64,000 bases of DNA from Prorocentrum cordatum (Eukaryota > Sar > Dinophyceae > Prorocentrales > Prorocentraceae). The notes beneath the pieces are model-generated. The model had not been told where the DNA came from. It was given only the letters and a program-made list of their open reading frames with translations, and searched no databases. Both the position numbers and the translations under genes were made by a program. The stretch is from the NCBI GenBank assembly GCA_963575745.1, contig CAUYUJ010017812.1, forward strand, positions 62,001 to 126,000, given 5' to 3'. Numbering within the stretch: the stretch's first letter is position 1; the number at the start of each line of letters is the position of its first letter. Of the stretch, positions 4,131-50,677 are shown one piece after another.

Positions 4131-4139
4131 ACCCGACCC

Positions 4140-8006: not shown

Positions 8007-10187
8007 CTGCGGTGCGGCATTATTTTCGCGCCCTGCCTTGCGCAGTGCGGTGTGCCCCCTGCTGCCAACCAACCTGCGCCTCGCTTGGCCCGGTTGCTGC
8101 AGTGCGGCATTCTTTTAGCGTCCTGACCCGACCCCATTTGCCTTGGGGGAGCGGTCCAGCAACCCTTGTGACGCTCAGGAGCGGCCCCCAGTCTTTTGGT
8201 GCGCGGTGCCAGCAACCCTGTGACGCTCAGGAGCCGCCCCCACTTGCACGTGGGAGCGCGGTCCAGCAACCCTGCGACGCGCAGGAACCGCCCCCATTTG
8301 CAGTGGCGAGCGCGGCCCCAACAACCTGTGAGGCTCAGGAGCCGCCCCCATTTGCACGTGGGAGCGCGGTCCAGCAACCCTGTGACGTGCAGGAGCCGCC
8401 CCCATTCGCACGTGCGAGCGCGGTCCAGCAACCCTGTCACGCTCAGGAGCCGCCCCCAGTCTGCTGGTGCGCGGTCTCAGCAACCCTGTGACGCTCAGGA
8501 GCCGCCCCCCATTTGCATTGGGAAGCGGTCCAGCAACCCTGTGACGCTCAGGAGCCGCCCCAGTTGCACCGGGGAGCGGTCCAGCAACCCTGTGACGCTC
8601 AGGAGCTGCCCTTCTCTGCCGGTGCGCGGCCCAGCAATCCTGTGACGCTCAGGAGCCGCCCCCACTTGCACGTGGGAGTGCGGTCCAGCAGCCCTGCGAC
8701 GCACAGGAGCCGCCCCCATTTGCAGTGGCGAGCGCGGCCCCAGCAACCCTGCGACGCGCAAGAGCCGCCCCCATTTGCACGTGGGAGCGCGGTCCAGCAA
8801 CCCTGTGACGCGCAGGAGCCGCCCTCATTCGCACGTGCGAGGGCGGTCCAGCAACCCTGTGACGCTCAGGAGCCGCTTCCAGTCCCACACTGGAATGCGG
8901 TCCTAGCAGCCCTGTGACGTTCAGGAGCCGCTTCCAATCTGCTGGATTACGGTCCCAGCAACCCTGTGACGCTCAGGAGCCGCCCCCATTTGCATTGGGG
9001 AGCGGTCCAGCAACCCTGTGACGCTCAGGAGCCGCCCCAGTTGCCCTGGGCAGCGGTCCAGCAACCCTGTGACGCTCAGGAGCCGCTTCCAGTCCCACAC
9101 TGAATTGCGGTCTCAGCAGCCCTGTGACGCTCAGGAGCCGCCCCCAGTCTTCTGCTGGCGCGCGGTCCAGCAACCCTGTGATGCTCAGGCGGGTTCTAGC
9201 GGGGGATGCGCGAATGCTCCTTCGCATGGGCCAAAATGGCCACAGTGACCAAAAATACCTCCCGCCTTGTTCTGGTCCTGTGGCGGCGGAGGCAAGTCTG
9301 GAGGGGCGCTGGATTCCCGCCTCCCCATGACGCTCCCCGTCGGCCTGGGTGCTCCTCTCAGGCCACGGGGAGGGATAGGGAGCGGGTCGTTGCCACGGCC
9401 GGATCCTTGTCGCCACGGCCCCTCCGAGCCGACCCAAGTGCCCTCCCCCCGTCTCCCGTTGCAGGGGGCACTGGGAGGATTGCATTCGACACCGGCTGCC
9501 CCCCTGCCCGCGTGAAACGCCGATGGGGAGCAGCGCTTGGTTTCGGCAGGAGGCGGAGGAGGAGTCCTCATCCCGCTAACCTTCCCTTCCGCAGAACGGT
9601 GGTCCTCGAGGGACGGCATCCGTCCTTCTAGCTTGCGTATGGTGAGGAATCACCGTTGTCGGAGAGAGGAGGTTTCTACGTCCATTCACGCTCGCGGACG
9701 CCGCCCCGCACAGGTTCGCAATCGCGGCGGGAGTTGGTCGGCCAGGCACCAGCGCGCCCAGATTTGCATTCCGAGCTCGATTGTCATGCTTTTGGCGCCG
9801 CCGCGTGCAGAATTTCATTCCTATATTTTTTGCAAGTTTGGGCGTGTGCTAGCCCAGAATTGCTTTCTAAGCCCTATCGCGTTTCTGGGCCGCCGCGAGC
9901 ACCCAGAATTGAGCCTGAATTTGTGCTGACTCCACCGCGCCCAGAATTGCATTCTGAGCTCTATTTCACGTGTTTGGGCACGTGCGCGCCCAGACTTGCA
10001 GTCTGCTTTATCTCGCATTTGCAGCGCCGCTGCGCCCAGACTTGCATTCTGAGCTCGTTTTCGCGTTTCCGGAGCCTCCACAACGAGATTCGCAATTGCG
10101 GCGAGTTGCTCATTCTGGCACCAGCGCGTGAGCTCGATTCTTTCGGCGCCTCTGCGCCCAGAAGTGCATTCTGAATTCGATTTCACG
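8007..10187. repeat. Segment C', second copy of the 2.2-kb duplication
   Basis: Direct copy of 4012-6188 with few differences, containing the 55-62-bp array (8140-9200), the GC-rich spacer and the minisatellite. Past 10187 it continues into sequence (TGTTTGGGCCCCTGCACTCC) that matches copy 2 at 40829 onward. C' is therefore joined to the original right flank and C to the inverted insert. Confidence 0.85.
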
Positions 10188-10730
10188 TGTTTGGGCCCCT
10201 GCACTCCCAGAGTGCATTCTGAGCTCAATTTCGCGGCTCTGGCGCTGCAACGCCCAGATTCGCAAGTGGGGCACGTTCCCCATCATTCTGGCACCAGCGC
10301 GCCCAGCCAGCGCTGGCGGAAGCAGAATCGCATTCTGCATTTCGCTGTTCCAGCGCAATTTCGTCATTCTGGCACCAGCGCGCCCAGAATTGCATTCTGA
10401 GCTCTATTTTCCGGTTTGGGCGCCTGCGCGCCCAGAATTGCATTCTGAGCTCGATTTCGCGCGCTTGGGCGCTTGCGCGCTCAGATTTGATTCTGAACTC
10501 TATTTTCCGGTTTGGGCGCCTGCGCGCCCAGAACTGCATTCTGAGCTCGATTTCGCCTGCTCGGGCGCTTGCGCGCCCAGAATTGCAGTCAGAGCTTAAT
10601 TCCGCGGCGTGGGCGCTAGCACGCGCTGATTCGCAATTGCGGCGCGACTTCGCCCGCTGATTGGATTCTGAGCTCGATTCCGCACGTTCGAGTCTCGCGC
10701 GCCCAGATTTACAATCGCGGTGCAGATTTG
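10188..10730. repeat. Minisatellite continuing 3' of segment C'; contains Merlin empty site
   Basis: Further GCGCCCAGAATTGCATTCTG units, matching 40829-41242 and then 45775-45900. At 10596-10603 the sequence TTAATTCC runs on uninterrupted, whereas the homologous place in copy 2 (41235-41242) is followed by a 4.5-kb Merlin-OTU transposon. This is the unoccupied target site. Confidence 0.8.
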
Positions 10731-11597
10731 CCATTCAACGCTGGGCATCCAGAGTTGCATTCTGCGCGACATTTGGCCCCTGGCGCTGGCGCTCTCGCCT
10801 GGCGTTGCCACGCCATTTCGCACTCGAGCGCGCAGCTGCCCGAATTGCTTTCTTGGGCCGACGCGCGCTGCAGGGTCAACCCTTGGGCACTCGGGGTCGG
10901 ATGTGTGCAGGCGGCAGAAGCTAGTCCCTGATGGGGGGCATTGGCTAACCCCCCACCTGCACACAACGGGGGCAGGGGTGCTCGTGCAGCACGCCTGTCC
11001 TCGACCGAACCGCGGGGGGCCCGCGCCCCAAACGGCACGTAATCGGCATATCCATGCTGACGTCCTTTCACCAGTGAACTCAAAATCAAATTCTGGTGTG
11101 GCTCGTGAAATTTGAGCTCCGGCCATTGAAAATTCGATCCGCTGCGGACGGATCTGTTAGAGCAATTTTTCGGGCAACCCGGAAAATAGCAGTCCGACGA
11201 TGGTCGACCGAAGTAGCGTGGGATGAGCGGAAGCCCCCTCGCGTGCGGCCACTTGGCCAAAACAGGCCACGATACGCTCAAAATAACTCTGTCCTTGCTC
11301 TAGCCCGTTGCTGGCTTCGCCGCTCACGCCTGTGAAATTCGCAATAGAAGGCCCAAAAGCATTGCATAGAAGGCCCATGCCCATTGCGGGACGCCAAGGC
11401 GCTGTCATCTCGCAGTCGGTTTCGCTGGACTCGCCTTTGCACAGGTTGTCTGGCGGCAGCCCCAAAGTGACTGTGATGGCATTCTTCCGAGGCTGGCCGG
11501 TGCGCCAACGACCTTCAGACCTAGGTTGCTTGTAGTAGAGGCTTCCACTGTCAGCAGTCTGGCTCTGTAGACATTTGTGCCCAAGCAAGGCGGCATA
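10731..11597 (+). other. Leader region of the nested pol, copy 1
   Basis: Non-coding stretch between the minisatellite and the pol start. It includes the conserved block GGCAGAAGCTAGTCC...TTGGCCAAAACAGGCC (10912-11260), with a strong hairpin-forming run TTGGCTAACCCCCCACC, also found at 2150-2560, 6187-6490 (reverse) and 46120-46440. At 11565-11585 CTGTAGACATTTGTGCCCAAG matches the dinoflagellate spliced leader at 16 of 21 positions, 12 bases before the ATG at 11598. No ORF here has family similarity. Confidence 0.55.
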
Positions 11598-15429: not shown

Positions 15430-15448
15430 CCGTAGCCTCGGGCCCAAG
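15430..15448 (+). other. Spliced-leader-like motif before nested YR, copy 1
   Basis: CCGTAGCC then TCGGGCCCAAG, 3 bases before the YR ATG at 15452. The first eight bases equal the start of the dinoflagellate spliced leader and the last four equal its end. The copy-2 equivalent at 50656-50674 is nearly identical. Confidence 0.45.
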
Positions 15449-15451
15449 ACA

Positions 15452-22340: not shown

Positions 22341-22983
22341 GGGCAGCCTCGCTTGGGGGCTTGCTCGCCCGTCACGCCGGCAGCGCCTTCTCCGCTGTCC
22401 CAATGCAGGCGCGCCCACCCCAACGGAGGCAGTGAGAAGATTTTCTCACCCCCTAAAGGTTCTTTCGTGGGGAGGAAAATCGGCGTTTCGGCCGTGGTTT
22501 CCCACGGTTGGTCGTTTGGTCCGTTTGGGGAGTTTCATGGTTTCCTCATGGCCTGGTTGGCTCCAGTAGGAGCGGCGGCGTTGGCGCGTGTCGTCGGGGT
22601 TCTGTGGTTTGCCGCCCGGCGCGGGAGCGGGGTAGCAAGTTCCCGGCGTCCTCGTCGCCACGTTCGCCATGGCTACGCAGGCGCGCTCCTGGCTGACTTG
22701 GTCTGTCCAGTGCGCGTGCCTCGTCTGTCCCTGCGGGGTGTGCCGCGGCTCGGCCGGGCTGGGGCTCTGGGCCCCGGCGGCTTTGATGCTGCCGCTTTTG
22801 CCCTCCCGCCCTCCCTGGTCTGGTGGGTGTGGTTCGCTGCTGGCCGCACGGGCAGCGGTGTCTGGTTGGGGTGTGGGTTCGGCGTGTCGGGCAGCCTCGC
22901 TTGGGGGCTTGCTCGCCCGTCACGCCGGCAGCGTCTTCTCCGCTGTCCCAATGCAGGCGCGCCCACCCCAACGGAGGCAGTGA
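22341..22983 (+). repeat. B1-A2-B2 terminus of the element carrying the 20.9-kb YR
   Basis: A 95-base repeat, GGGCAGCCTCGCTTGGGGGC to ACGGAGGCAGTGA, is at 22341-22435 (B1) and 22889-22983 (B2). The intervening 453 bases (A2) start with a hairpin at 22439-22481. This is the same split-direct-repeat plan as in the nested element. The last base overlaps the target duplication of the Merlin element that follows. Confidence 0.75.
22439..22481 (+). other. Hairpin at start of A2
   Basis: GATTTTCTCACCCC...GGGGAGGAAAATC: a 7-bp outer stem (GATTTTC/GAAAATC) and a CCCC/GGGG inner stem around CTAAAGGTTCTTTCG. Comparable hairpins start A2 at 29436 and lie 3' of YR at 58178-58230. Candidate recombinase or replication site. 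Confidence 0.6.
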
Positions 22984-22990
22984 AAATTCC
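22983..22990. other. Left 8-bp target duplication of Merlin copy 1
   Basis: AAAATTCC immediately left of the element, repeated at 27674-27681 immediately right of it. Eight bases fits the 8-9 typical of Merlin/IS1016 elements. Confidence 0.8.
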
Positions 22991-23109
22991 GGTGCAAAAC
23001 TGTCTACAGAAATTTTTGGTCGTTTCGACTGGTCCACCCCTCTACAGAGGAATGCCACCTCTAAAGGTTTTTGCCCGCGTCTAAAGCGCCACAGTGGCCC
23101 TGTCTAAAG

Positions 23110-23500
23110 GGGTTGCCCGGGGATTCTGAAAGCATTCTGAGAGGATTCTGAGAGGATTCTGAGAGGATTCTGAGAGGATTCTGAGAGCATTCTGCGAGGA
23201 TTCTGAGAGGATTCTGGAAGCATTCTGCGGGGATTCTGAAAGCATTCTGAGAGGATTCTGAAAGCATTCTGAGGGGATTCTGAAAGCATTCTGAGGGGAT
23301 TCTGAAAGCATTCTGAGAGGATTCTGAAAGCATTCTGAGGGGATTCTGAAAGCACTCTGAGAGGATTCTGAAAGCACTCTGAGAGGATTCTTAAAGCACT
23401 CTGAGAGGATTCTGAAAGCACTCTGAGAGGATTCTGAAAGCACTCTGAAAGCACTCTGAGAAGATCCCGAGGGGATTCTGAAAGGATTCTGAAAGCATTC
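23110..23500. repeat. 11/22-bp minisatellite in Merlin copy 1
   Basis: Alternating GGATTCTGAAA and GCATTCTGAGA units between the left terminal repeat and the transposase start. The copy-2 array at 41373-41815 has a different unit number. Frames open on the minus strand (ESSQNAFRIP repeats) are artefacts. Confidence 0.9.
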
Positions 23501-23565
23501 TAAGTGATACCGGAACGATCCCAAGCGATTCCGGGCCGATTTTCGCATGACGTAGCCTAAGCACG

Positions 23566-25857
23566 ATGGCTCAACCTCCGAGTTTGACTTCGTGCCCTTA
23601 CTGTGCTTTACCTATACCTGCAGAATTGTTGTTCGCTCACCTTGCGACTCATGAAGGATATGTGAATGCATTTTTTGGACGAGGTGGCTCTTCGCAGTCG
23701 CAATCTGCCCTGGTGCCAGCAGTGCCACAATCGGGGCCAGAGCCACCTGCACGTCGACTCGTTCCACTTGCAGCCGAGCCAGCTCCGCCGGCGCAACCGC
23801 CGCAAATTCCTTTACATGATGCGCCGCGATCGGTAGGTTTCCACCGATGTTCTAGCATGCAGCTTCCCGAACTTCTGCAACACCTCGACGATCGGAAAGA
23901 GGCCGGAATCCTTCAGGACCTTCTTTCTGAAGGTGTTGTCCGCCCGCTTGGGCACTGTGGCTGCAACGCTTCTCGGCCGACCCTGAGACCAAGCCAAAGA
24001 GCCAGCCAGGCAGTCAAAGGCAGAGGCCATGGCCCTATAGCTTCAGCCAGATGCACTCGTTGTCAAGCGCACCACTCTGTCGATTTCAGTGGAACTCCGT
24101 TTGAGGGGAGCCGAAATAAACTTGGCTTGGTTACAACGTTCAAACTGGCTGCACACTGGTTGGACGGGACTGGCGTCGGGAAAACCGCTCGGGCATTGAA
24201 GATATGTGACAGCACGGCATCTGCAATGTGGAGCAAGCTGAGACTCCCAGTGGCGTGGCAGCAGCAGAACTTACCCAGGATTGCCGATTCAGAGTGCATC
24301 GTGGATATCACGTGGGGCCCGCATCGGAGACAGGTTCGGTACGGCGTGCCAGCGCGTCCTCTCAAGTTCGAGAGCTACATCTTTCAAGTGGCAGTGGCAT
24401 TCAGGGTCTTCCAAGGCGTCCAGCGATTCCTACCTGGAACTCTTCGTGTGCAACGTGTCCTCAGCAAAGATGCCACGTACAACAAAAACGTGTTGTTGAC
24501 AATGTTGGACCCTTCCTGCGCAATAGTTTCGGACCAGGGCTCCGAATGGGCACGCCTCCCGCATTTCGTTGCCCGAGCCTCAACAGTCAACCATTCAGTA
24601 GAATGGGTTTCGGCCGACGGTACAACAACAAATTTGGGCGAATCCTTCAATGGACTATTGAAGAAAATGGGTAGCCAGCTGAGTATGTGGAAAGGCCGGG
24701 TTGCTGATTCAGAACTTGAAGTCCGATGGCAGGAATTGGCTTGGAGATCAATTCAAAACTAAACACAAGCGTCATCCCTGCTGGCGCGAAATTGGTCAAA
24801 TATGTGGCAGTTTTGGCAGAATACCAAGCGAGCACCCAGGGGAGACTACCAGCAGTGGTTCCTGAAGCGCGACGAGCGCTGGAAATGTCACGAATACCTC
24901 TCCCGACGGGGGAACACAGAGTGAGGCGATTTCCAGCGAAAAGGTCCGAGCTGCTGAAGGCGTGCTGGCGCAGACTACGGGAGTGGTTGCGGGGGGATGC
25001 CGATACTTTGGAATTGGAGGGGCTCTCGAGGCAAGAACGTTTCTACTGCCACAGGTGGTGTGAGTGCTGGATTGGCATCAGCCACACCTCCACAGGCCCT
25101 GAAAGCAATAGAGTCTTGCATCTCCAGAGAGCCTCAAAAGTATATCGTCGTCAGCTCCAGACTGCGGAGAGGCACCCCGACGACGCACAGAAAGATGACT
25201 CCGACCCGAGCGAAGACCAGGAGAGCTCAGGCGCCACCATCGTCGACTCAGATGACGCGCCGCTGGTCCACAAGGCGAGCTCTCGACGAAGCACGAAAGA
25301 GGCCCGCGGCAGACGTGCCAGAACAAGATAAAGACGTAGAGATCAGCATTGAGGAGCTCGACGAGGCTCTGGCTCCCTACGGCAAGCGCTGCGATCCGTC
25401 TACACCGAAGGACGGGCATTGCCTGTTCCACGCCCTCCGAAAACTTGGGATGACAGACTACAGCATCTCACGCATGAGGGCTCGTGTGATGGAAGAGGCA
25501 GACCCAGCAGCCCTAGCAGCGGCAGCTGCCAATCTTGGTCGTACTGTGCAGCAGCACAAGGCTAAGCAGCTGCGGGACGACTACGCAGACGACCTTGTGT
25601 TGGGCACTTTGGCGAGGATCTACGAAAAAACAGTGGTGGTGGTGAATACCGACAGCATTCGCACGTTTACCAGCATTGGTGTGGACCTCGACGGCGCAGT
25701 GCCCGACACACCCTTTTGGCCCGCCTACAACAGAGTGAATCATTACTATGGGACGCTCCCACAGACGCCCCCGAAGGAAGTGCCAGCAGGTGCGTCCAGT
25801 GCTTCACAATCTCTTGGATTGACAGGCTTTTTAGCTCAAAGGATCGAAAAACATTGA
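23566..25857 (+). pseudogene. Transposase-OTU fusion gene, copy 1 (two frameshifts)
   Basis: N-terminus: CPYCALP...HLATH, a C2H2-type finger (residues about 9-27). Then CTRCQAHHSVDFSGTPFEGS, as in the Zn-ribbon/linker of ISXO2-like transposases, and a DDE core with CIVDITWG (Asp), AIVSDQGSEW (Asp), VNHSVEWV and TTNLGESFNGLLKK (Glu), the TNxxE-type end of the Merlin/IS1595 group. The first 398 residues are open (to 24762). One base is missing near 24751 (GGAGATCAATT versus GGAGAATCAATT) and two near 25300 (AGCACGAAAG versus AGCACGCGAAAG), so the net frame is restored for the C-terminal OTU domain: PKDGHCLFHALRKL with the DG.C nucleophile and NRVNHYYG with the catalytic His. About 764 codons in all. 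CGTAGCCTAAG just before the ATG is a faint spliced-leader-like trace. Confidence 0.85.
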
Positions 25858-26480
25858 AGGAATCTGTGATTGAGCTAGAATGATCTATAGTTTCACACCC
25901 GTTTCACACAGAATGCCGTTGGAATGATTTCGCGCAACTGGTGTGAGAACAAAGATCATCACATCACATCTTCGATCACTGCGCCAGACGTTTGCATGCT
26001 CCGATTGCCGATTGAGGCGTTTCCGTGCCCAGATTGCCGATAGAGACGTTTCCGTGCTCAGATTGCCGATTCGCGCGTGTCCGCTTTGATTGCCGATTCG
26101 GGCGTTTCGGTGCTCAGATGCCCGATTCGAGCGTTGCAGTGCTCAGATTGCGGGTTCGTGCGTTTCAGGGCTCAGATTGCACATGCGAGCGTTTCGGTGT
26201 TCAGCTTGCCAAGTCAGGCGTTTCCGTGCTCAGGTTGCAGATTCGGGTGTTTGCTCAGATTGCGGATTCGAGCGTTTCAGCGCTCAGATTGCGGATTCGG
26301 GCGTTTCCGTACTCAGATTGCCTATTCGGGGGTGTCGTTGCTCAGATTGCCGTTCTGGGCGTTGTTGCGTTCAGATTGCCGGTTCGTGCCTTTCAGGGCT
26401 AAGATTGCTGATTCCGGCGTTGCGGTGCTGAGGTTGCGGATTGAAGCGTTTCTGTATTCAGATTGCCCTTTCTGGCGTTG
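25858..26480. repeat. About 30-bp array inside Merlin copy 1
   Basis: From about 25985: degenerate units TTCGGGCGTTTCCGTGCTCAGATTGC with GCGGATTCGAGCG variants. Copy 2 holds the same array at 44290-44780. Open frames rich in LR, SD and CRFG repeats come from the units and are not genes. Confidence 0.82.
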
Positions 26481-27500
26481 CACGACGTAGATTGCCATTT
26501 GGGCGGCTTGGATTGCAAATCTGGGCGGCCCTGGGGAAGCACGCAACAGCGCAAGAACGAGTTCAGATTGGAATTCTGGGCGCGCCTGCCTGAGAGAGCG
26601 CGGAATCGAGCTCTGATTGCAATTCTGGGCACGCCCGCTCGGGAAACACGAAAACTAATTCAGATTGCAATTCCGAGCGCGCCCCCTTGGGAGAGCGCGA
26701 AATCGAGTTCAGATTGGAATTCTGTGCGCGCCTGCTTGGGAAAGCGCGGAATCGAGCTGAAATCGCAATTCTGGGCGCGCCTGCCAAAGAGAGAGCGCAG
26801 AGTCGAGCTCAGATTGCAATTCTGGGCGCGATCGCTTCGGAGACGGCGAAAACGAGTTCAGATTGGAATTGTGGGCGCGCTTGCCTGGGAGCCGAGCTCA
26901 GATTGCAATTCTGGGCGCGCCCGCTTGGGAAGCACGAAAACAAGTTCAGATTGGAATTCTGGGCGCGCCTGCCTGGGAAAGCGCGAAATCGAGCTCAGAT
27001 TGCAATTCTGGGCGCGCCTGCCTGAGAGAGCGCAGAACCGAGCTCAGATTGCAATTCTGGGCGCGCCCTTCAGATTGCAATTCTGGGCGCGCCTGCCTGG
27101 GAGAGCGCGAAATCGAGCTCAGATTGGAATTCTGGGCGCCTGCCTGAGAGAGCGCGGAACCGAGCTCAGATTGCAATTCTGGGCGCGCCCGCTTGGAAAG
27201 CACGAAAGCAAGTTCACATTGCAATTCTGGGCGCGCCTGCCTGAGAAAGCGCGGAACCGAGCTCAGATCGCAATTCTGGGCGCGCCTGCCTGAGAGAGCG
27301 CGGAACCGAGCTCGGATTGCAATTCTGGGCGCGCCCGCTTGGAAAGCACGAAAACAAGTTCAGATTGCAATTCTGGGCGCGCCTGCCTGGAAGAGCGCGA
27401 ATTCGAGCTCAGATTGCAATTCTGGGCGCGGCTGCTCGGAAAACACGAAATCATATTCAGGCTGCAATTCTGAGCGCGCTTGCTCGGGATATACCCCGAA
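26481..27500. repeat. About 55-bp GCAATTCTG array inside Merlin copy 1
   Basis: About 18 units of GAGCTCAGATTGCAATTCTG followed by GGCGCGCCTGCCTGAGAGAGCGCGGAACC. It has the same core as the minisatellites at 1-730, 10188-10730 and 57236-57700, yet here it is part of a DNA transposon. Copy 2 (44810-45590) has fewer units. Confidence 0.85.
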
Positions 27501-27576
27501 AGCAGGTGCCGATCGGTATTATGGGCGCGCCTGTGCGGTTTGTTCCCTACACACTGTGGAGGTGTCCACCAGAGTA

Positions 27577-27681
27577 CTTTAGACGGGGCCAAAAACCTTT
27601 AAAGTGTGTGCTTCTCTGTGGGAGAGGTGGCCAGGTCTAAACGACCACCTTCTTCTGTAAACTGGATCCGCCCAAAATTCC
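27577..27681. other. Right terminal repeat and target duplication of Merlin copy 1
   Basis: Reverse complement of 27577-27673 aligns with 22991-23086. The terminal bases are ...GGATCCGCCC here against GGTGCAAAACTG at the left, so the outermost 12 bases are poorly matched while the inner part is good. AAAATTCC follows at 27674-27681. Confidence 0.78.
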
Positions 27682-34200: not shown

Positions 34201-34400
34201 AGCTAGCACTTTTGGGCGGCGGTGCATGGCCGGATTCCTCGTCTGGGGCCTGTGCGGACGCACTGCGCACTCAGATGTGCCCCGCAACCCTGTGACGCTC
34301 AGGTGCCGCCCGCTCGCTTAGAGCGCCGCGGAGCTAGCACTTTCGGGTTGCGGTGCACGGCCGGCTCGTGCTCCCTCGTCAGGGGGGTTCGCGCCAGCGC
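31221..34400. repeat. About 130-140-bp tandem array
   Basis: More than 20 units with AACCCTGTGACGCTCAGG, GCCGCCCGCTCGCTCAGAG, CGGCGTGGAGCTAGCACTTT and CGGTCGGCTCCCTCGTCTGG. A short AT-richer stretch at 31240-31330 interrupts it. Long frames are open on both strands, but every one is repeat translation. Confidence 0.85.
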
Positions 34401-35060: not shown

Positions 35061-37315
35061 TGACCAATCCAGCTTTGCATTCTGTTCACGGTCTTGCACT
35101 TTTGGCGCTGGCGCGCGTAGCTTCGCAACTGTGGCGCAGCTACTCCAGCGTCAAGTTTCAGAATCACATCCTGTGCTTCCGCGTTTCTGGCGTGTGCACA
35201 CCCAGATTCGCGATCGTGGAACAGTCGTTTGGTGTTTCCAGCGGTGTGATTTTGGCCATTCTAACGCAAGGACTTGCATGCTGAGCCCGATTCGCATGCT
35301 CAGCGCCCGAGCGCTCAGATTCGCCATCGGCGCCCAATGTGCCGCGCGCTCTTCTTCAGAGCGGCGCAGAGCTTTCGACACACCAGGCTCCGTGGTGTAC
35401 AGGCGGCGGCCGCTCGCTCCCTGTTTGGGGGGCTGCGCCCGCCGCGTGCCTTCTGCCGAGCAGCCCTGTGACGCTCACGAGCTGCTCGCTCCTCTTCTGA
35501 ACGGCGCGGAGCTCTCGACGCAGGCTTCGTGGCGTACAGTTGGCGGCGGGCGGTGTCTGCAGCCAAACCGCGCGCCTCCTGCCAAGCAGCCCTGTGGAGC
35601 TCAAGTGCCGCGCGCTCTTCCTCAGAGCAGCGCGCAGCAGGCTCGCGCAGCGCTCCCCGCTTTGGAAGTCTGCAGCCACGCCACACGCGGTTTCTTCCTG
35701 GCACTCTGTGACCCTCAGGTGCTGCGCGCTTCTCATGCTTTGCCGCGCGCTCTTCATCAGACGAGGGCGGAGCTTTTGACGCACGCTCGCGGTACAGTTG
35801 GCGGCCGCTCTGTCCTTGGGTGTCTGCGGCAACGCCGCGTGGCTTCTGCCACCCCGGGGCCGCGCGCTCTTCGTCTGAGCAGCGCGGAGCTCTCGACGCA
35901 GGCTCCTGGCGCGCAGCCGGCGGCCACTCTCTTGTCTGGGGGCATGTGCCCACCTTCTTTCGAAACAACTCAAGTGCCGCGCGCTCTTCAGAGCCGCGCA
36001 GAGGTTTCGGCGCAGCAGGCTCATGGCGCCCAGTCGGCGGCCACGCCCTGCTTGGGAGTCTGGGTTCACGCCGCGTTCCATGTAACCAGGCAACCCTGTC
36101 ACGCTCAGGCTGCGCGCCGCGTGGGGCGTTCGACGCAGGCTGCACGTTCATCCCCCTAGGCGCTGCACCCAGAATTGCATTCTGAGGTCGGTTCCCCAGC
36201 GCCCACCGCCCAGACTCACAATGGCGCGTCAATTTCGCCTTTCTGGCGCTGACGCGCTCAGATTCCAACTCATGCAGTGCAGCCCTCTCGCGAGTGCAGC
36301 GTTTGGCCAGTCACCCTGTGCTCACTCAGGTTGTGGCAGCGCGTCATTCTGCACCCCGCCTGCCTTGCGCAGCGCAGCGCCTGGCCACGGTTGCCAACCG
36401 CGTGCAGCGCTCCATTGGCGCTGTGCCGTCTGGCCCCTTTGCACCCGCTGCCTTGCGCAGGTGGCGCGTGCTGCTCCACATAACAGCCTGGTTGCCGCAC
36501 GGTCGCCTTCCGTTGCACCTGCGCGGCCAGCAATGCATTTGGAGCACGGGGCCTGGGTTCTGGCGCCAGCGTGCCCCGAAGATTCGCGAGCGCAATTTAC
36601 TGCTTCCGCGTGCTCGCTAAGACTGCAGTCTGTGCTTTCATTGCTGGCGCAGCGTCGATGATGAGCGCGCAGCAGCAGAGCATTCGCTGGTTGCCAGGTT
36701 GCCATTCGGTGGTCAGGCCCCTGCGCTGCTTCTGGCGCTGGCGCGCCCAGGAATGCCTTCCGAGCTTCGTCGATTCAGCGCCGATTTCCGGCGCCAAGGT
36801 GTCCAGACCCGCATTCTCGATTTCGCGGTTCGCGCGCCTGCGCCGCGCATGATTAGCGATTGCCAGCGATTTGGCTTTCGTCTGAGGTGGCCGAGAATAG
36901 TGCGTCCATTGGTCTTGGGGCCTTCGCGCCATTTCGTGCAAACCTGCCGCTCAGGTGCCTCGCGCCCCACCGCTGAGCGATGGTGTGCGGCGGGGCCGCC
37001 TTCCGTGAGGGCTTTACTGTCAGGTGCCGTGCTTGTGCATACATCCCTGGCGGGCGATTTTGGCAAAGGGTTCGGGCGTTCGATCGGCCCAACCTCCTTG
37101 CTTTGGAGCTTGCGCTGGCGGGCCGCACCGCTAATCGCACCAATGCAGCGTGCCTCCGCCTTGTTTTGTACTAGTTCCTGTCCATGCGAAGCTTATAGAG
37201 GGATCCGTTCACAACACCGCACTGGATCAAGCAAATGAAACGCTCATTCGGAAGTTACCTGTTCGCGCAGGAGAGCGGACCACGCCGTGCCGTGCAAGCT
37301 GCGTTCGAACCAAGC
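35061..37315. repeat. Degenerate repeat-derived region, no gene seen
   Basis: 35340-36120 holds a decayed roughly 120-bp array (CCGCGCGCTCTTC.TCAGAGC with CTGTGACGCTCA remnants). From 36160 there are scattered GCACCCAGAATTGCATTCTG and TGGCGCTGGCGCG.. motifs like the minisatellites. None of the open frames carries a recognisable domain. The family-1 element starts at 37316. Confidence 0.55.
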
Positions 37316-38369: not shown

Positions 38370-40835
38370 AACCCGCGCCACGCTTGGCCTGGTTGCTGCA
38401 GTGCGGCATTCTTCGCCCCCTGCCTTGCGCAGTGCGGCGTGCCCCCCGCTGCCAACCTGCGCCGCGCTTGGCCTGGTTGCTGCAGTGCGGCATTCTTCGC
38501 CCCCTGCCTTGCACAGTGCGGCGTTCCCCCTGCTGCCAACCTGCGCCTCTCGTGGCCCGGTTGCTGCAGTGCGGCATTCTTCGCCCCCTGCCTTGCGCAG
38601 TGCGGCGTGTCCCCTGCTGCCAACCTGCGCCTCTTTTGGCCTGGTTGCTGCGGTGCGGCATTATTTTCGCGCCCTGCCTTGCGCAGTGCGGTGTGCCCCC
38701 TGCTGCCAACCAACCTGCGCCTCGCTTGGCCCGGTTGCTGCAGTGCGGCATTGTTTTAGCGTCCTGACCCGACCCCGTTTGCCTTGGGGGAGCGGTCCAG
38801 CAACCCTTGTGACGCTCAGGAGCGGCCCCCAGTCTTTTGGTGCGCGGTGCCAGCAACCCTGTGACGCTCAGGAGCCGCCCCCACTTGCACGTGGGAGCGC
38901 GGTCCAGCAACCCTGCGACGCGCAGGAACCGCCCCCATTTGCAGTGGCGAGCGCGGCCCCAACACCTTGTGAGGCTCAGGAGCCGCCCCCATTTGCACGT
39001 GGGAACGCGGTCCTGCAACCCTGTGACGCGCAGGAGCCGCCCCCATTCGCACGTGCGAGCGCGGTCCAGCAACCCTGTGACGCTCAGGAGCCGCCCCCAG
39101 TCTGCTGGTGCGCGGTCTCAGCAATCCTGTGACGCTCAGGAGCCGCCCCCCATTTGCATTGGGAAGCGGTCCAGCAACCCTGCGACGCTCAGGAGCCGCC
39201 CCAGTTGCACCGGGGAGCGGTCCAGCAACCCTGTGACGCTCAAGAGCTGCCCCCCTCTGCCGGTGCGCGGCCCAGCAATCCTGTGACGCTCAGGAGCCGC
39301 CCCCAGTTGCACGTGGGAGTGCGGTCCAGCAGCCCTGCGACGCACAGGAGCCGCCCCCATTTGCAGTGGCGAGCGCGGCCCCAGCAACCCTGCGACGCGC
39401 AGGAGCCGCCCCCATTTGCACGTGGGAGCGCGGTCCAGCAACCCTGTGACGCGCAGGAGCCGCCCTCATTCGCACGTGCGAGGGCGGTCCAGCAACCTGT
39501 GACGCTCAGGAGCCGCTTCCAGTCCCACACTGGAATGCGGTCCTAGCAGCCCTGTGACGTTCAGGAGCCGCTTCCAATCTGCTGGATTACGGTCCCAGCA
39601 ACCCTGTGACGCTCAGGAGCCGCCCCCATTTGCATTGGGGAGCGGTCCAGCAACCCTGTGACGCTCAGGAGCCGCCCCAGTTGCCCTGGGCAGCGGTCCA
39701 GCAACCCTGTGACGCTCAGGAGCCGCTTCCAGTCCCACACTGAATTGCGGTCTCAGCAGCCCTGTGACGCTCAGGAGCCGCCCCCAGTCTTCTGCCGGCG
39801 CGCGGTCCAGCAACCCTGTGATGCTCAGGCGGGTTCTAGCGGGGGATGCGCGAATGCTCCTTCGCATGGGCCAAAATGGCCACAGTGACCAAAAATACCT
39901 CCCGCCTTGTTCTGGTCCTGTGGCGGCGGAGGCAAGTCTGGAGGGGCGCTGGATTCCCGCCTCCCCATGACGCTCCCCGTCGGCCTGGGTGCTCCTCTCA
40001 GGCCACGGGGAGGGATAGGGAGCGGGTCGTTGCCACGGCCGGATCCTTGTCGCCACGGCCCCTCCAAGCCGACCCAAGTGCCCTCCGTCTCTCGTTGCAG
40101 GGGGCACTGGGAGGATTGCATTCGACACCGGCTGCCCCCCTGCCCGCGTGAAACGCCGATGGGGAGCAGCGCTTGGTTTCGGCAGGAGGCGGAGGAGGAG
40201 CCCTCATCCCGCTAACCTTCCCTTCCGCAGAACGGTGGTCCTCGAGGGACGGCATCCGTCCTTCTAGCTTGCGTATGGTGAGGAATCACCGTTGTCGGAA
40301 AGAGGAGGTTTCTACGTCCATTCACGCTCGCGGACGCCGCCCCGCACAGGTTCGCAATCGCGGCGGGAGTTGGTCGGCCAGGCACCAGCGCGCCCAGATT
40401 TGCATTCCGAGCTCGATTGTCATGCTTTTGGCGCCGCCGCGTGCAGAATTTCATTCCTAGTTTTTTTTTTGCAAGTTTGGGCGTGTGCTAGCCCAGAATT
40501 GCATTCTAAGCCCTTTCGCGTTTCTGGGCCGCCGCGAGCACCCAGAATTGAGCCTGAATTTGTGCTGACTCCACCGCGCCCAGAATTGCATTCTGAGCTC
40601 TATTTCACGTGTTTGGGCACGTGCGCGCCCAGACTTGCAGTCTGCTTTATCTCGCATTTGCAGCGCCGCTGCGCCCAGACTTGCATTCTGAGCTCGTTTT
40701 CGCGTTTCCGGAGCCTCCACAACGAGATTCGCAATTGCGGCGAGTTGCTCACTCTGGCACCAGCGCGCGAGCTCGATTCTTTCGGCGCCTCTGCGCCCAG
40801 AAGTGCATTCTGAATTCGATTTCACGTGTTTGGGC
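38370..40835. repeat. Array region of nested element, copy 2
   Basis: In order: about 85-bp array (38370-38765), 55-62-bp array (38770-39845), GC-rich spacer without a gene (39846-40380), and GCAATTCTG minisatellite (40385 onward). It corresponds to one unduplicated copy of 3740-6188. Confidence 0.85.
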
Positions 40836-41242: not shown

Positions 41243-41870
41243 GGTGCAAAACTGTCTACAGAAATTTTGGTCGTTTCGACTGGTCCACCCCTCTACAGAG
41301 GAATGCCACCTCTAAAGGTTTTTGCCCGCGTCTAAAGCGCCACAGTGGCCCTGTCTAAAGGGGTTGCCCGGGGATTCTGAAAGCATTCTGAGAGGAATCT
41401 GAGAGGATTCTGAGAGCATTCTGAGAGGATTCTGAGAGCATTCTGGGAGGATTCTGAAAGCATTCTGAAAGCATTCTGAAAGGATTCTGAAGCATTCTGC
41501 GAGGATTCTGAGAGGATTCTGGAAGCATTCTGCGGGGATTCTGAAAGCATTCTGAGAGGATTCTGAAAGCATTCTGAGGGGATTCTGAAAGCATTCTGAG
41601 GGGATTCTGAAAGCATTCTGAGAGGATTCTGAATGCATTCTGAGGGGATTCTGAAAGCACTCTGAGAGGATTCTGAAAGCACTCTGAGAGGATTCTGAAA
41701 GCACTCTGAGAGGATTCTGAAAGCACTCTGAGAGGATTCTGAAAGCACTCTGAAAGCACTCTGAGAGGATCCCGAGGGGATTCTGAGAGGATTCTGAAAG
41801 CATTCTAAGTGATACCGGAACGATCCCAAGCGATTCCGGGCCGATTTTCGCATGACGTAGCCTAAGCACG

Positions 41871-44166
41871 ATGGCTCAACCTCCGAGTTTGACTTCGTGT
41901 CCTTACTGTGCTTTACCTATACCTGCAGAATTGTTGTTCGCTCACCTTGCGACTCATGAAGGATATGTGAATGCATTTTTTGGACGAGGTGGCTCTTCGC
42001 AGTCGCAATCTGCCCTGGTGCCAGCAGTGCCACAATCGGGGCCAGAGTCACCTGCACGTCGACTCGTTCCACTTGCAGCCGAGCCAGCTCCGCCGGCGCA
42101 ACCGCCGCCAATCCCTTTACATGATGCGCCGCGATCGGTAGGTTTCCACCGATGTTCTAGCATGCAGCTTCCCGAACTTCTGCAACACCTCGACGATCGG
42201 AAAGAGGCCGGAATCCTTCAGGACCTTCTTTCTGAAGGTGTTGTCCGCCCGCTTGGGCACTGTGGCTGCAACGCTTCTCGGCCGACCCTGAGACCAAGTC
42301 AAAGAGCCAGCCAGGCAGTCAAAGGCAGAGGCCATGGCCCTATAGCTTCAGCCAGATGCACTCGTTGTCAAGCGCACCCACTCTGTCGATTTCAGTGGAA
42401 CTCCGTTTGAGGGGAGCCGAAATAAACTTGGCTTGGTTACAACGTTCAAACTGGCTGCACACTGGTTGGACGGGACTGGCGTCGGGAAAACCGCTCGGGC
42501 ATTGAAGATATGTGACAGCACGGTATCTGCAATGTGGAGCAAGCTGAGACTTCCAGTGGCGTGGCAGCAGCAGAACTTACCCAGGATTGCCGATTCAGAG
42601 TGCATCGTGGATATCACGTGGGGTCCGCATCGGAGACAGGTTCGGTACGGCGTGCCAGCGCGTCCTCTCAAGTTCGAGAGCTACATCTTTCAAGTGGCAG
42701 TGGCATTCAGGGTCTTCCAAGGCGTCCGGCGATTCCTACCTGGAACTCTTCGTGTGCAACGTGTCCTCAGCAAAGATGCCGCGTACAACAAAAACGTGTT
42801 GTTGACAATGTTGGACCCTTCCTGCGCAATAGTTTCGGACCAGGGCTTCGAATGGGCACGCCTCCCGCATTTCTCTGCCCGAGCCTCAACAGTCAACCAT
42901 TCAGTAGAATGGGTTTCGGCCGACGGTGCAACAACAAATTTGGGCGAATCCTTCAATGGACTATTGAAGAAAATGGGTAGCCAGCTGAGTATGTGGAAAG
43001 GCCGGGTTGCTGATTCAGAACTTGAAGTCCGATGGCAGGAATTGGCTTGGAGAATCAATTCAAAACTAAACACAAGCGTCATCCCTGCTGGCGCGAAATT
43101 GGTCAAATATGCGGCAGTTTTGGCAGAATACCAAGCGAGCACCCAGGGAAGACTACCAGCAGTGGTTCCTGAAGCGCGACGAGCGCTGGAAATGTCACGA
43201 ATACCTCTCCCGACGGGGGAACACAGAGTGAGGCGATTTCCAGCGAGAAGGTCCGAGCTGCTGAAGGCGTGCTGGCGCAGACTACGGGAGTGGTTGCGGG
43301 GGGATGCCGATACTTTGGAATTGGAGGGGCTCTCGAGGCAAGAACGTTTCTACTGCCACAGGTGGTGTGAGTGCTGGATTGGCATCAGCCACACCTCCAC
43401 AGGCCCTGAAAGCAATAGAGTCTTGCATCTCCAGAGAGCCTCAAAAATATATCGTCGTCAGCTCCAGACTGCGGAGAGGCACCCCGACGACGCACAGAAA
43501 GATGACTCCGACCCGAGCGAAGACCAGGAGAGCTCAGGCGCCACCATCGTCGACTCAGATGACGCGCCGCTGGTCCACAAGGCGAGCTCTCGACGAAGCA
43601 CGCGAAAGAGGCCCGCGGCAGACGTGCCAGAAAAAGATAAAGACGTAGAGATCAGCATTGAGGAGCTCGACGAGGCTCTGGCTCCCCACGGCAAGCGCTG
43701 CGATCCGTCTACACCGAAGGACGGGCATTGCCTGTTCCACGCCCTCCGAAAACTTGGGATGACAGACTACAGCATCTCACGCATGAGGGCTCGTGTGATG
43801 GAAGAGGCAGACCCAGCAGCCCTAGCAGCGGCAGCTGCCAATCTTGGTCGTACTGTGCAGCAGCACAAGGCTAAGCAGCTGCGGGACGACTACGCAGACG
43901 ACCTTGTGTTGGGCACTTTGGCGAGGATCTACGAAAAAACAGTGGTGGTGGTGAATACCGACAGCATTCGCACGCTTACCAGCATTGGTGTGGACCTCGA
44001 CGGCGCAGTGCCCGACACACCCTTTTGGCTCGCCTACAACAGAGTGAATCATTACTATGGTACGCTCCCACAGACGCCCCCGAAGGAAGTGCCAGCAGGT
44101 GCGTCCAGTGCTTCACAATCTCTTGGATTGACAGGCTTTTTAGCTCAAAGGATCGAAAAACATTGA
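41871..44166 (+). pseudogene. Transposase-OTU fusion gene, copy 2 (one-base insertion)
   Basis: The N-terminal part (MAQPPSLTSCPYCALP...) runs to 42410. One extra C near 42378 (GCGCACCCACTC versus GCGCACCACTC) shifts the frame, after which 577 codons are open from 42433 to 44166, covering transposase core and OTU in one frame. In that 577-residue numbering the putative catalytic residues are D60 (CIVDITWG), D136 (IVSDQGFEW) and E172 (TTNLGESFNG). Between about 210 and 400 is a basic, Arg-rich region and an acidic DDSDPSEDQESS linker. OTU: C433 in KDGHCLFHAL, H540 in RVNHYYG. This continuity is the direct evidence that the two domains belong to one protein. A single indel separates it from intactness. 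Confidence 0.88.
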
Positions 44167-45597
44167 AGGAATCTGTGATTGAGCTAGAATGATCTATAGT
44201 TTCACACCCGTTTCACACAGAATGCCGTTGGAATGATTTCGCGCAACTGGTGTGATAACAAAGATCATCACATCACATCTTCGATCACTGCGCCAGACGT
44301 TTGCATGCTCCGATTGCCGATTGAGGCGTTTCCGTGCCCAGATTGCCGATTGAGACGTTTCCGTGCTCAGATTGCCGATTCGCGCGTGTCCGCTTTGATT
44401 GCCGATTCGGGCGTTTCGGTGCTCAGATGCCCGATTCGAGCGTTGCAGTGCTCAGATTGCGGGTTCGTGCGTTTCAGGGCTCAGATTGCACATGCGAGCG
44501 TTTCGGTGTTCAGCTTGCCAATTCAGGCGTTTCCGTGCTCAGATTGCAGATTCGGGTGTTTGCTCAGATTGCGGATTCGAGCGTTTCAGCGCTCAGATTG
44601 CGGATTCGGGCGTTTCCGTACTCAGATTGCCTATTCGGGGGTGTCGTTGCTCAGATTGCCGTTCTGGGCGTTGTTGCGTTCAGATTGCCGGTTCGTGCCT
44701 TCCAGGGCTAAGATTGCTGATTCCGGCGTTGCGGTGCTGAGGTTGCGGATTGAAGCGTTTCTGTATTCAGATTGCCCTTTCTGGCGTTGCACGACGTAGA
44801 TTGCCATTTGGGCGGCTTGGATTGCAAATCTGGGCGCGCCTGGGGAAGCACGCAACAGCGCAAGAACGAGTTAAGATTGGAATTCTGGGCGCGCCTGCCT
44901 GAGAGAGCGCGGAATCGAGCTGCGATTGCAATTCTGGGCACGCCCGCTCGGGAAACACGAAAACTAATTCAGATTGCAATTCCGAGCGCGCCCCCTTGGG
45001 AGAGCGCGAAATCGAGTTCAGATTGGAATTCTGTGCGCGCCTGCTTGGGAAAGCGCGGAATCGAGCTGAAATCGCAATTCTGGGCGCGCCTGCCAAAGAG
45101 AGAGCGCAGAGTCGAGCTCAGATTGCAATTCTGGGCGCGATCGCTTCGGAGACGGCGAAAACGAGTTCAGATTGGAATTGTGGGCGCGCTTGCCTGAGAG
45201 AGCGCGGAGCCGAGCTCAGATTGCAATTCTGGGCGCGCCCGCTTGGGAAGCACGAAAACAAGTTCAGATTGGAATTCTGGGCGCGCCTGCCTGGGAAAGC
45301 GCGAAATCGAGCTCAGATTGCAATTCTGGGCGCGCGCCTGCCTGAGAAAGCGCGGAACCGAGCTCAGATTGCAATTCTGGGCGCGCCTGCCTGAGAGAGC
45401 GCGGAACCGAGCTCGGATTGCAATTCTGGGCGCGCCCGCTTGGAAAGCACGAAAACAAGTTCAGATTGCAATTCTGGGTGCGCCTGCCTGGAAGAGCGCG
45501 AATTCGAGCTCAGATTGCAATTCTGGGCGCGGCTGCTCGGAAAACACGAAATCATATTCAGGCTGCAATTCTGAGCGCGCTTGCTCGGGATATACCC
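44167..45597. repeat. 30-bp and 55-bp arrays inside Merlin copy 2
   Basis: 44290-44780 carries the GCGTTTCCGTGCTCAGATTGC array. 44810-45590 carries about 14 units with GATTGCAATTCTGGGCGCGC. Fewer units than in copy 1, as expected for tandem repeats. Confidence 0.83.
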
Positions 45598-45774
45598 CGA
45601 AAGCAGGTGCCGATCGGTATTATGGGCGCGCCTGTGCGGTTTGTTCCCTACACACTGTGGAGGTGTCCACCAGAGTACTTTAGACGGGGCCAAAAACCTT
45701 TAAAGTGTGTGCTTCTCTGTGGGAGAGGTGGCCAGGTCTAAACGACCACCTTCTTCTGTAAACTGGATCCGCCC

Positions 45775-46802
45775 ATTCCGGCGCGGGCGCTAGCACGCGC
45801 TGATTCGCAATTGCGGCGCGACTTCGCCCGCTGATTGGATTCTGAGCTCGATTCCGCACGTTCGAGTCTCGCGCGCCCAGATTTACAATCGCGGTGCAGA
45901 TTTGCCATTCAACGCTGGGCATCCAGAGTTGCATTCTGCGCGACATTTGGTCCCTGGCGCTGGCGCTCTCGCCTGGCGTTGCCACGCCATTTCGCACTCG
46001 AGCGTGCAGCTGCCCGAATTGCTTTCTTGGGCCGACGCGCGCTGCAGGGTCCACGCACAAGACCCGGTCAGCTTGCACTGGGCACCTTGGGCACTCGGGG
46101 TCGGATGTGTGCAGGCGGCAGAAGCTAGTCCTTGATGGGGGGGCATTGGCTAACCCCCCACCTGAACACAACGGGGGCAGGGGTGCTCGTGCAGCACGCC
46201 TGTCCTCGACCGAACCCCGGGGGGCCCGCGTCCCAAACGGCACGTAATCGGCATATCCATGCTGACGCCCTTTCACCAGTGAACTCAAAATCAAATTCTG
46301 GTGTGGCTCGTGAAATTTGAGCTCCGGCCATTGAAAATTCGATCCGCTGCGGACGGATCTGTTAGAGCAATTTTTCGGGCAACCCGGAAAATAGCAGTCC
46401 GACGATGGTCGACCGAAGTAGCGTGGGATGAGCGGAAGCCCCCTCGCGTGCGGCCACTTGGCCAAAACAGGCCACGGTACGCTCAAAATAACTCTCTCCT
46501 TGCTCTAGCCCGTTGCTGGCTTCGCCGCTCACGCCTGTGAAATTCGCAATAGAAGGCCCAAAAGCACTGCATAGAAGGCCCATGCCCATTGCGGGACGCC
46601 AAGGCGCTGTCATCTCGCAGTCGGTTTCGCTGGACTCGCCTTTGCACAGGTTGTCTGGCGGCAGCCCCAAAGTGACTGTGATGGCATTCTTCCGAGGCTG
46701 GCCGGTGCGCCAACGACCCCCAGACCTAGGTTGCTTGTAGTAGAGGCTTCCACTGTCAGCAGTCTGGCTCTGTAGACGTTTGTGCCCAAGCAAGGCGGCA
46801 TA
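45775..46802 (+). other. Minisatellite and pol leader, copy 2
   Basis: Matches 10604-11597. The 46120-46440 block is the conserved leader with TTGGCTAACCCCCCACC. A 32-base insertion near 46055-46085 (CACAAGACCCGGTCAGC...) distinguishes it from copy 1. A spliced-leader-like CTGTAGACGTTTGTGCCCAAG lies at 46770-46790, 12 bases before the ATG at 46803. No gene seen. Confidence 0.55.
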
Positions 46803-48972
46803 ATGGAAGACCGTCTCGAGAACCTGCGGTCTTTGATTCGCCAGACAAATGACACGATGGGCTGGTGGCAAGGCGTGCGCGGGTTGACTTTGCGTTTCGA
46901 TTTCTTGAAACAGTGTGGCGCCGCTCCAGAGTTTTTACAATCGTGGCGGAATGGGATCAGTCTCGGTGCCGCTGCGGCTCCGCCAGCCAACATTCCCAAT
47001 CACCCTTCAGTTGCCCATCATAGCTCGTGGGCGACTGCCGAGTGGAGCAGGCTAGAGGCACTGGGAAAGGTTCGGTTCTTCAGCTCAAAGCCGCCGACTC
47101 TCCATGCCAACCCATGTGCCTTGCTGTTGAAACCAAGGGAAGGCGTGGACGCCAGTGCTGCGGAGCAAGAGCGCTTCAAAGCAAGGCTGATTTTGGACCT
47201 CAGACGGGGCAGAGTGAACGAGCGAATGCCTCAGGTGTCTGTATCATATGGCACAGTGGACCACGCAGTGTCCATGTTGCAGTCAGGTTCCTTCATGTTC
47301 GTCATCGATTTGCAGGATTGTTTTTTCAACTGGCGCGCGTCCACAGCTGATGCCAACCTCCTGGGTTTCTTTTGTCCTGCCAGGCAACTATACGGTCGAT
47401 GCGAATATCTTGCTTTCGGCCTTGCCCCGGCGCCCGGCCTCAATGACAGTTCCATGAAGGAATTGTTGCGCTTGTTGGGGATTACAGCGGGCGCGCGCCT
47501 GCTCGATTTCGTGGACGACATGTTCGGGGAAGGAAGCACCAAAGATGAAGCCTGGATGCGCCTCGAAAAATCAGTGCAATTTTTCCTGTCCGCTGGTGTG
47601 CCTGTTAGTGGGAAGCCCACTGGCGTTCGGCCCCCAAGCACGCGGCAGCGTTGGATCGGTTGGGTTTTCGATTCCGTTGAAATGGTGGTGGCAGTTGAGC
47701 AAGACAAGTGTGATAAAGTGTGCCTCTCAATTGCGCAGACTCTGTCGGCAGACGAAGCCCGGACTCTTCGCGCGAAGGATCTGGCGACCACGGCGGGTTT
47801 GGCCAGCCACCTGTGCGAGATTTATCCACAAGCACGGCGGCGGTTGCATCCCATTTGGGCGGATATGAATGCAGCTGGTGTGTATGCGATGTGGGCGCGG
47901 AGCCCTGTAGCGAACCCGCCTGTGCAGCTATCTGAACTCAGCAGGAAGAACCTTGCATGGGCCTTGCGATCGCTGGCGTCGCCGCCTGTTCGCTCTCTGC
48001 ATTGCCACGCGGGTGCTCTGAGCAAGCGGGGCCACAAGTCTCCAGAGTTTTCTCGGTGGCAGGAATTGGCAGAAGCAGGCGCCATTCGAGTAATAGAGAC
48101 AGACGCGTCTTCCCAACATGGCTGGTCATATCATATTTGCCACTTGGGAAAAGTAGTTTCAGGAACATGGCCGTCCGATTTCGCCACGTCACAGAACTTG
48201 TCACCCGGTGAAGATGAGATCAATTACAAAGAGCTCTGGGTTGTCGTAAAATGTTTGGAGGATTGCGGGGAAGAGGAAGTGGCTGGCGCTTACTATTTCG
48301 AGTGGACAACACTTGCGCTGTTCATTACGTGAATGTGCGATACGGCAACATTCCTCGAATGGAGCCCCTGGCCGAAAAATTGGAAGCAGCAGAAAGACGG
48401 GCCTCCTGTTGGGCATTGGCGGTGCATTTGAGAGGCATCGCAAATAGAATTGCTGACTTGGGATCGCGAAATTCGGAATTTGCGTTTCAATGGAATTCCG
48501 ATCAGTTCCAGCATGCTTCCATCAAGGATAACATCTTTCGCGACATCCTCGCCAGGACAGGTGCCGAATTCTCCCTCGACCTTTTCGCGGACAGGGAAGG
48601 AATGACAGCCAGGGCTCCAACGTGGCGTTCGCCCGAGCGCACAGCATTCGAGGCGTGCTTGCTCAATGAAGTGGTGTGGGCTCATCCGCCGCGCGCCTTG
48701 CTCCGGCCTGCGTTGGAATTCCTGAGCGCCGCACTTGCACAGGAAAACCCGCCGAAGATCGTGCTGTTGTGCCCGGAAGATGTTGGGGCTCCGTGGTTCC
48801 GGCCACTTTTCCTGCAGCATTGGCACCGTGTCCGGTCGTGGCCCAAAGCTCAGATTTGTTCAGGATTCGTGAAGGCATGGCCTGGCGGTCTGGCCCAAAA
48901 ACTGATGTTCCTTACCTTTTGCTGCAGAGCTGGCAGCCAAACAGACGCAAGCGCAAGCTCGGGCGAGCCTGA
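46803..48972 (+). pseudogene. Nested-element pol, copy 2: RT, RNase H and C-terminal domain, frameshifted
   Basis: MEDRLENLRSLIRQTNDTMG starts an RT frame open to 48332, with VIDLQDCFFNW and FVDDMFGEG and the first two RNase H acidic residues (IETDAS, INYKEL). One base is missing near 48273 (GAAGAGGAAGTGG versus GAAGAGTTAAGTGG), shifting to a frame that carries FRVDNTCAVHYVNVRYG and the SLDLFADREG / WAHPPRALL / LLCPEDVGAPWF domain. A further missing base near 48846 shifts the last 40 codons (RREGMAW-type end, stop at 48970-48972). RNase H is complete here, whereas copy 1 has a deletion in it. Intact N-terminus here and intact middle in copy 1 together define a protein of about 720 residues. 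Confidence 0.85.
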
Positions 48973-50445: not shown

Positions 50446-50655
50446 GCATCTCCAGCCACGCGCCAGAGCCATTCGATTTTCCACGGCGTTTAGCCGCCTG
50501 CTGCTGTTCCCGACGTGCAGGCCGCTTTTAAGAGATCCTTGAAACATGAAAAATAACAGGCCTCTATGGGGTGTCCGCCACGGCTGGTTTCAGAGGCTCC
50601 GAATTGATGGGGCCTTCCGTCTTTCATGCGCCACATGAGTCTTCCCACTGCCGTT

Positions 50656-50674
50656 CCGTAGCCTCGGGTCCAAG
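50656..50674 (+). other. Spliced-leader-like motif before nested YR, copy 2
   Basis: CCGTAGCC-TCGGG-TCCAAG, 3 bases before the ATG at 50678. It keeps both ends of the dinoflagellate leader with a shortened middle. Confidence 0.45.
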
Positions 50675-50677
50675 ACA

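Follow-up and report, generated by a model that had tools for sequence, protein, structure and literature searches.

A Merlin-like transposon of Prorocentrum cordatum with a DDE transposase and an OTU-type cysteine protease domain in one reading frame

Can a DDE transposase and an OTU-type cysteine protease belong to a single gene of a Merlin transposon, and if so, what would the protease do there? This question is raised by a locus of the dinoflagellate Prorocentrum cordatum. The stretch analyzed, here called the window, comprises 64,000 nucleotides of contig CAUYUJ010017812.1 (assembly GCA_963575745.1, positions 62,001 to 126,000 of the forward strand) and harbours two copies of a Merlin-like transposon, copy A of 4,683 bp (22991..27673, +) and copy B of 4,532 bp (41243..45774, +). 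These limits, already given in a preliminary description of the DNA, agree with the ends that the copies have in common. In copy B an open frame of 606 codons (42346..44166, +), which extends the earlier noted frame 42433-44166 upstream, encodes a helix-turn-helix recognized by eye, followed along the frame by Pfam matches to DDE_Tnp_IS1595, R3H and OTU, with an acidic linker between the last two. The earlier claim of one frame with both a DDE core and an OTU domain is thus upheld. The residues that had been numbered D60, D136, E172, C433 and H540 are all present, and with an offset of 29 become D89, D165 and E201 of the DDE part and C462 and H569 of the OTU part. That the full protein consists of a Cys/His-rich N-terminal part, the helix-turn-helix, DDE, R3H, acidic linker and OTU is held with high confidence.

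The transposase core of copy B (42604..42951, +) has its catalytic codons at 42610-42612 (D), 42838-42840 (D) and 42946-42948 (E), and its assignment is based on PF12762 and three relatives. Residues 132-210 of the frame match DDE_Tnp_IS1595 (PF12762) with an E-value of 2.3e-6 and a score of 28.1 bits (cut-off 27), and the match in copy A (7.5e-7) is above the cut-off as well. The three relatives, here labelled P0003, P0004 and P0002, share 73%, 60% and 52% identity with the DDE part. No match was obtained in a search of PDB sequences with the 606-residue frame or in an NCBIfam search of three proteins, and scans of viral contigs (n=3) and genome contigs (n=1) brought up no relatives. A PDB search with profile A2 gave four weak matches, among which was the R3H protein SMUBP-2 (E 0.58). 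The structure model of the 606 residues was poor (mean pLDDT 37) and usable at residues ~302-366 only.

The OTU-type domain (43711..44061, +) carries its cysteine in a DGHC motif (codon 43729-43731) and its histidine at codon 44050-44052. A Pfam check of the frame had been proposed for both domains; the DDE part came out above its cut-off, but the OTU part (PF02338) did not, its E-value being 0.0032 when the entire frame was searched and 3e-4 when the search was confined to the domain (18.4-21.7 bits against a cut-off of 23.3 bits). Copy A scored 0.011 (16.7 bits), also below the cut-off. On the copy B domain alone the unrelated family VMAP-M2 nearly equals OTU (4.8e-4, 20.3 bits, below its own cut-off). 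However, the relative P0005 shows 40% identity over 78% of the OTU stretch (E 3.2e-24), scores 45.3 bits with the OTU profile and has no VMAP-M2 match. The predicted identity of the C-terminal domain as an OTU-type cysteine protease, weak by its own Pfam score, is made much firmer by this relative, which lies well above the Pfam cut-off. The DGHC and NHYY motifs are kept in both copies, and P0005 aligns DGHC and HYYG with them. An OTUD5 profile matches at 4.3e-4, spanning both the cysteine and the aligned histidine. In a Foldseek search with the OTU model, the first 36 of the 50 matches listed were OTU-family domains. A search of phage records with the OTU part found no relative.

Between DDE and OTU lies a predicted R3H domain (43261..43431, +), of a nucleic-acid-binding type, which the preliminary description had overlooked. 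With the Pfam R3H profile (PF01424, cut-off 26.8 bits) P0004 scores 27.3 bits, above the cut-off, while copy A (24.8), copy B (22.5) and P0002 (21.8) remain below it; the E-value for copy B is 1.2e-4. R3H precedes the acidic linker (43444..43659, +), noted earlier and borne out by a content of 24% D/E over residues 367-438. The N-terminal transposase part of copy B (41871..42378, +), with the motif CPYC...HLATH and the cysteine pairs CGC...CTRC, does not share its frame with the remainder of the gene. Over 179 residues it has 97% identity with the N-terminal part of copy A, which is continuous with DDE there. Its motifs were read by eye and had no Pfam match.

Several observations place the element among the Merlin transposons. 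Copies A and B are identical at 4,424 of 4,465 aligned bases (99.08%), with 285 gap columns, largely in tandem repeats. Both begin with GGTGCAAAACTG and end with ACTGGATCCGCCC; the ends are GG...CC, the right one reading GGGCGGATCCAGT as reverse complement. In copy B the ends form imperfect terminal inverted repeats of ~110 bp (left 41243..41352, +; right 45665..45774, -), with 82 of 104 aligned bases matching. Their global alignment score of 84 was reached by none of 500 random window pairs (maximum 62). The corresponding repeats of copy A match at 81 of 105 aligned bases. Copy A is flanked by a perfect 8-bp target-site duplication, AAAATTCC, at 22983..22990 and 27674..27681. A 95-bp direct repeat (22341-22435 and 22889-22983, 98.9%) is also found here, the last base of its second unit being also the first of the left duplication. 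For copy B, which lies within a repeat, an element-free paralogue of its flanks was found at 10004..11169 (+), with the uninterrupted site at ~10599-10604. The joined flanks are 95.6% identical to this paralogue across the junction, and ATTCC, present as a single unit at the uninterrupted site, flanks copy B left and right: the element has inserted here in the past. Of the copy B duplication only these 5 bp are left, and the right flank shows further small differences from the uninterrupted site. Within the element, tandem repeats detected by Tandem Repeats Finder lie upstream of the gene (11/22 bp, 41372..41806, +) and downstream of it (29 bp and 49/97 bp, 44298..45584, +).

The published definition of Merlin, as applied here, comprises an IS1595-type DDE, 5'-GG ends, an 8- or 9-bp target duplication, terminal repeats of 24-462 bp and the lack of an N-terminal Zn_Tnp_IS1595 zinc finger. 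Pfam showed no such finger when the 403-codon copy A frame was scanned, although by eye the CGC...CTRC pairs occupy a candidate position for one. In view of the DDE profile, the GG ends, the 8-bp target duplication and the uninterrupted paralogous site, the earlier Merlin/IS1595 assignment is retained, and classification of the element as a Merlin-superfamily DNA transposon of the cut-and-paste type, which fits the published definition, is supported by its sequence features. Membership of Ginger1 was rejected, the only DDE profile at E up to 1 being IS1595 and the duplication being AAAATTCC and not CCGG or CCGT, with no separate look for H2C2 and GPY/F. A Helitron was set aside too, since a cut-and-paste element is what the DDE domain, the terminal repeats and the target duplication suggest; Pfam scans of the element frames gave no Rep or helicase family, with no search aimed at these alone.

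It could be argued that DDE and OTU are not one gene, the frame being a chance read-through into a neighbouring OTU gene or an artefact of assembly. GC-rich repeats of the window do give long chance frames, for example 34207-36159, which is rich in repeats and open for 650 codons. Frame length alone is therefore no proof, and relatives weigh more. Random sequences were made with order-1 composition (500) and with order-2 composition (500), and their longest open runs reached 312 and 436 codons, so that the 606-codon frame exceeds all 1,000; this control together with the relatives of the DDE and OTU parts rules out a chance open frame. Homology with P0002 enters the linker from one side, and homology with P0005 starts just upstream of the OTU profile on the other. 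Furthermore, two copies at different places have the same domain order within shared ends, copy A with a perfect target duplication and copy B at a site with an uninterrupted paralogue. These two copies and the uninterrupted site led to rejection of split genes or an assembly artefact, and it is hardly credible that the two domains come from separate genes.

Neither copy is intact. The frame break of copy B lies upstream, between the N-terminal part (ATG at 41871) and the DDE part. Copy A had been described as a second copy with the same order; the order is indeed kept, but the domains are spread over three overlapping frames on the + strand. The first (23551..24762, 403 codons) holds the N-terminal part and DDE, the second (24720..25331) R3H (PF01424, 2.2e-5) and the linker, and the third (24958..25857), which resembles copy B from 25297, the OTU part. 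Nonsynonymous and synonymous changes between the copies number 2 and 3 in the N-terminal part, 7 and 2 in the helix-turn-helix and DDE, 3 and 1 in R3H and linker, and 4 and 1 in OTU. The five changes in the N-terminal part are too few to judge. The others are as expected from neutral decay after insertion, and selection on the source gene is neither supported nor denied by them.

These data bear on the view that OTU is a passenger, i.e. that a host OTU exon was captured by one lineage of the element and is translated while remaining idle in transposition, in copies that are decaying. The near neutral ratio of changes in both DDE and OTU, the breaks in both copies and the existence of P0002 without an OTU domain agree with it. 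Neutral change between two young dead copies is silent on selection at their source, however, and DGHC and the histidine are kept in both. Similar pairings are moreover described, in the text available, for Ginger1 (PMC2836005) and Helitrons (PMC9741609). A passenger domain is regarded as unlikely, though it deserves to be taken seriously.

The preferred reading is that of a Merlin transposon whose OTU domain would be a cis-acting deubiquitinase. In this view the terminal repeats would be bound by the N-terminal part and helix-turn-helix, the DDE nuclease would cut and join DNA, and R3H may contribute an extra nucleic-acid contact. Moving with the transposase, OTU would act in cis as a putative deubiquitinase. 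Its target would most likely be the transposase itself, which could thus escape the proteasome, or else repair or chromatin proteins at the excision site. The account as a whole, with the substrate left unchosen, is given an even chance, and the mechanism taken by itself we consider about equally apt to be right or wrong. The roles suggested for OTU in the preliminary description, deubiquitination or processing of the fusion, remain matters of inference.

As for processing, OTU might be a protease that cuts the fusion and frees a DDE-R3H transposase. In favour of this, R3H and OTU are joined by an acidic linker that is probably flexible. OTU enzymes, however, normally cleave ubiquitin linkages. 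Self-processing is also not mentioned for Ginger1 in the available text of PMC2836005, and we consider it very unlikely here. The cis-acting deubiquitinase remains the preferred reading, and similar functions have been proposed in other systems. The VTD domain of Helitrons was suggested to shield Helitron enzymes against proteasomal degradation, and its deubiquitinase activity was measured, whereas transposon OTU domains had not been tested according to the portion of that report at hand (PMC9741609). For Ginger1 a role in DNA repair signalling was proposed by the Ginger authors (PMC2836005).

Which known elements come closest depends on the part that is compared. The bacterial IS1595 family encodes a single transposase gene, which is not known to carry OTU or R3H. 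Its members (ISXO2, IS1016) have the same DDE family and usually 8-bp target duplications (PMC8101967). The Merlin families Sy.m_F1, Sy.k_F1 and Sy.k_F2 of Symbiodinium share with the present element DDE_Tnp_IS1595, GG ends, the 8-bp target duplication, imperfect terminal repeats, internal tandem repeats and a dinoflagellate host. They differ in that S. microadriaticum proteins measure 181-445 amino acids and that in one S. kawagutii family a ZZ finger is found at the C-terminus of some copies; the same paper reports a WD40 case as well (PMC8101967). A word search of the main text of that paper for OTU, protease, R3H and ubiquitin gave 0 occurrences.

Protease domains do occur in other transposon groups, as stated beforehand. 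In Ginger1 the DDE transposase is followed at its C-terminus by either OTU or Ulp1, not both, in all but one of the tabulated families, the exception having neither. In contrast to the present element, its DDE is of the Gypsy-integrase type in an unrelated transposase family, its target duplications are CCGG or CCGT and its tabulated families are from animals (PMC2836005). Helitrons and Helentrons similarly have a deubiquitinase-type domain, OTU in some and VTD or both in others, but are rolling-circle elements with RepHel and no DDE transposase (PMC9741609; PMC6431247). Mutator with Ulp1 is likewise a DNA transposase group with a ubiquitin- or SUMO-type protease, but both transposase family and protease class are different, as they are for the protist case of Trichomonas vaginalis transposase_11 with peptidase C19 (both cited in PMC2836005).

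The preliminary description knew of no protease in Merlin, and none was found for Merlin-OTU in the literature searched, with Repbase reports, preprints and supplements outside the search. For R3H in Merlin no report was found either, the R3H search bringing up PMC3985635 only. As far as searched, the DDE-OTU pairing is a new combination in Merlin, while transposon-protease fusion itself was already known in other groups. The Merlin case, in an alveolate, adds a transposase family to Ginger1, Helitron, Mutator and Trichomonas. The repeated gain of ubiquitin or SUMO proteases by unrelated transposase classes suggests a general need of transposons to control these modifiers. In addition, one catalytic mutation could serve to test what the protease does in this element, a small cut-and-paste system.

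The relative P0002 hints at a wider pattern. It retains DDE and R3H as well as the beginning of the acidic linker, after which it reads VERQEGSLCLKHALSNILKA and has no OTU. With this piece all four PDB matches at E up to 1 were Josephin domains of ataxin-3 or ataxin-3-like proteins (best 0.046), while the reversed piece, used as a control, gave 0 matches. Pfam gave no Josephin match in P0002; its matches beyond DDE and R3H (VanA_C 0.011, Herpes_LMP1 0.025) were taken as chance. The remainder of P0002 has no recognised domain and may be mis-predicted. Tentatively, the C-terminal end of P0002 may be the start of a Josephin deubiquitinase, a hint of exchangeable C-terminal deubiquitinases. It is conceivable, if somewhat doubtful, that in a dinoflagellate Merlin lineage the transposase gained R3H and later, at its C-terminus, a socket for interchangeable deubiquitinases, OTU in the present element and Josephin in P0002. 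If true, this would be a further independent origin of transposons with an enzyme that cleaves ubiquitin or SUMO, beside Ginger1, Helitrons and Mutator, and the sole case with Josephin known to us.

In the gene model of P0003 a Merlin transposase is joined to the end of a peridinin-chlorophyll protein (PCP), which may mean that the element inserted next to a PCP gene or that host protein and transposase are fused. In the window itself a remnant at 29849-30130 (-), MDLTNLLVWIKNRSEAGLLSDLLTASIVGPLGRCSC, resembles the Merlin N-terminal part (36% over 95 positions, E 6e-10 for this window). It had no Pfam match; perhaps it stems from a third Merlin family that has diverged, or the two have an N-terminal module in common.

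Elsewhere in the window, frames resembling reverse transcriptases and tyrosine recombinases occur at 11648-13225, 15324-17009, 50639-52234 and 53887-56040. Their Pfam matches (RVT_1 1.2e-5; Phage_integrase 0.0019 and 0.0021; RVT_3 0.0037) are all below cut-off, and their sequences suggest DIRS-like tyrosine-recombinase retroelements. As judged by reading, 46776-48332 is a repeat of 11648-13225, and 50639-52234 one of 15324-17009; 60240-62408 (-), which has no Pfam match, resembles 53887-56040. One tRNA-Ala (cgc) was predicted by ARAGORN at 62007-62085 (-). It is probably false, because Rfam at curated thresholds had no match in the window and the locus lies within a long frame. Inverted repeats of 1.4 kb and 0.45 kb at 99% link 635-2465 and 6187-8013, and a direct repeat is present in three copies of 99-100% identity (4012-6126, 8007-10125 and 38648-40764), ~4 kb and then ~30.6 kb apart; both sets appear to be recent duplications.

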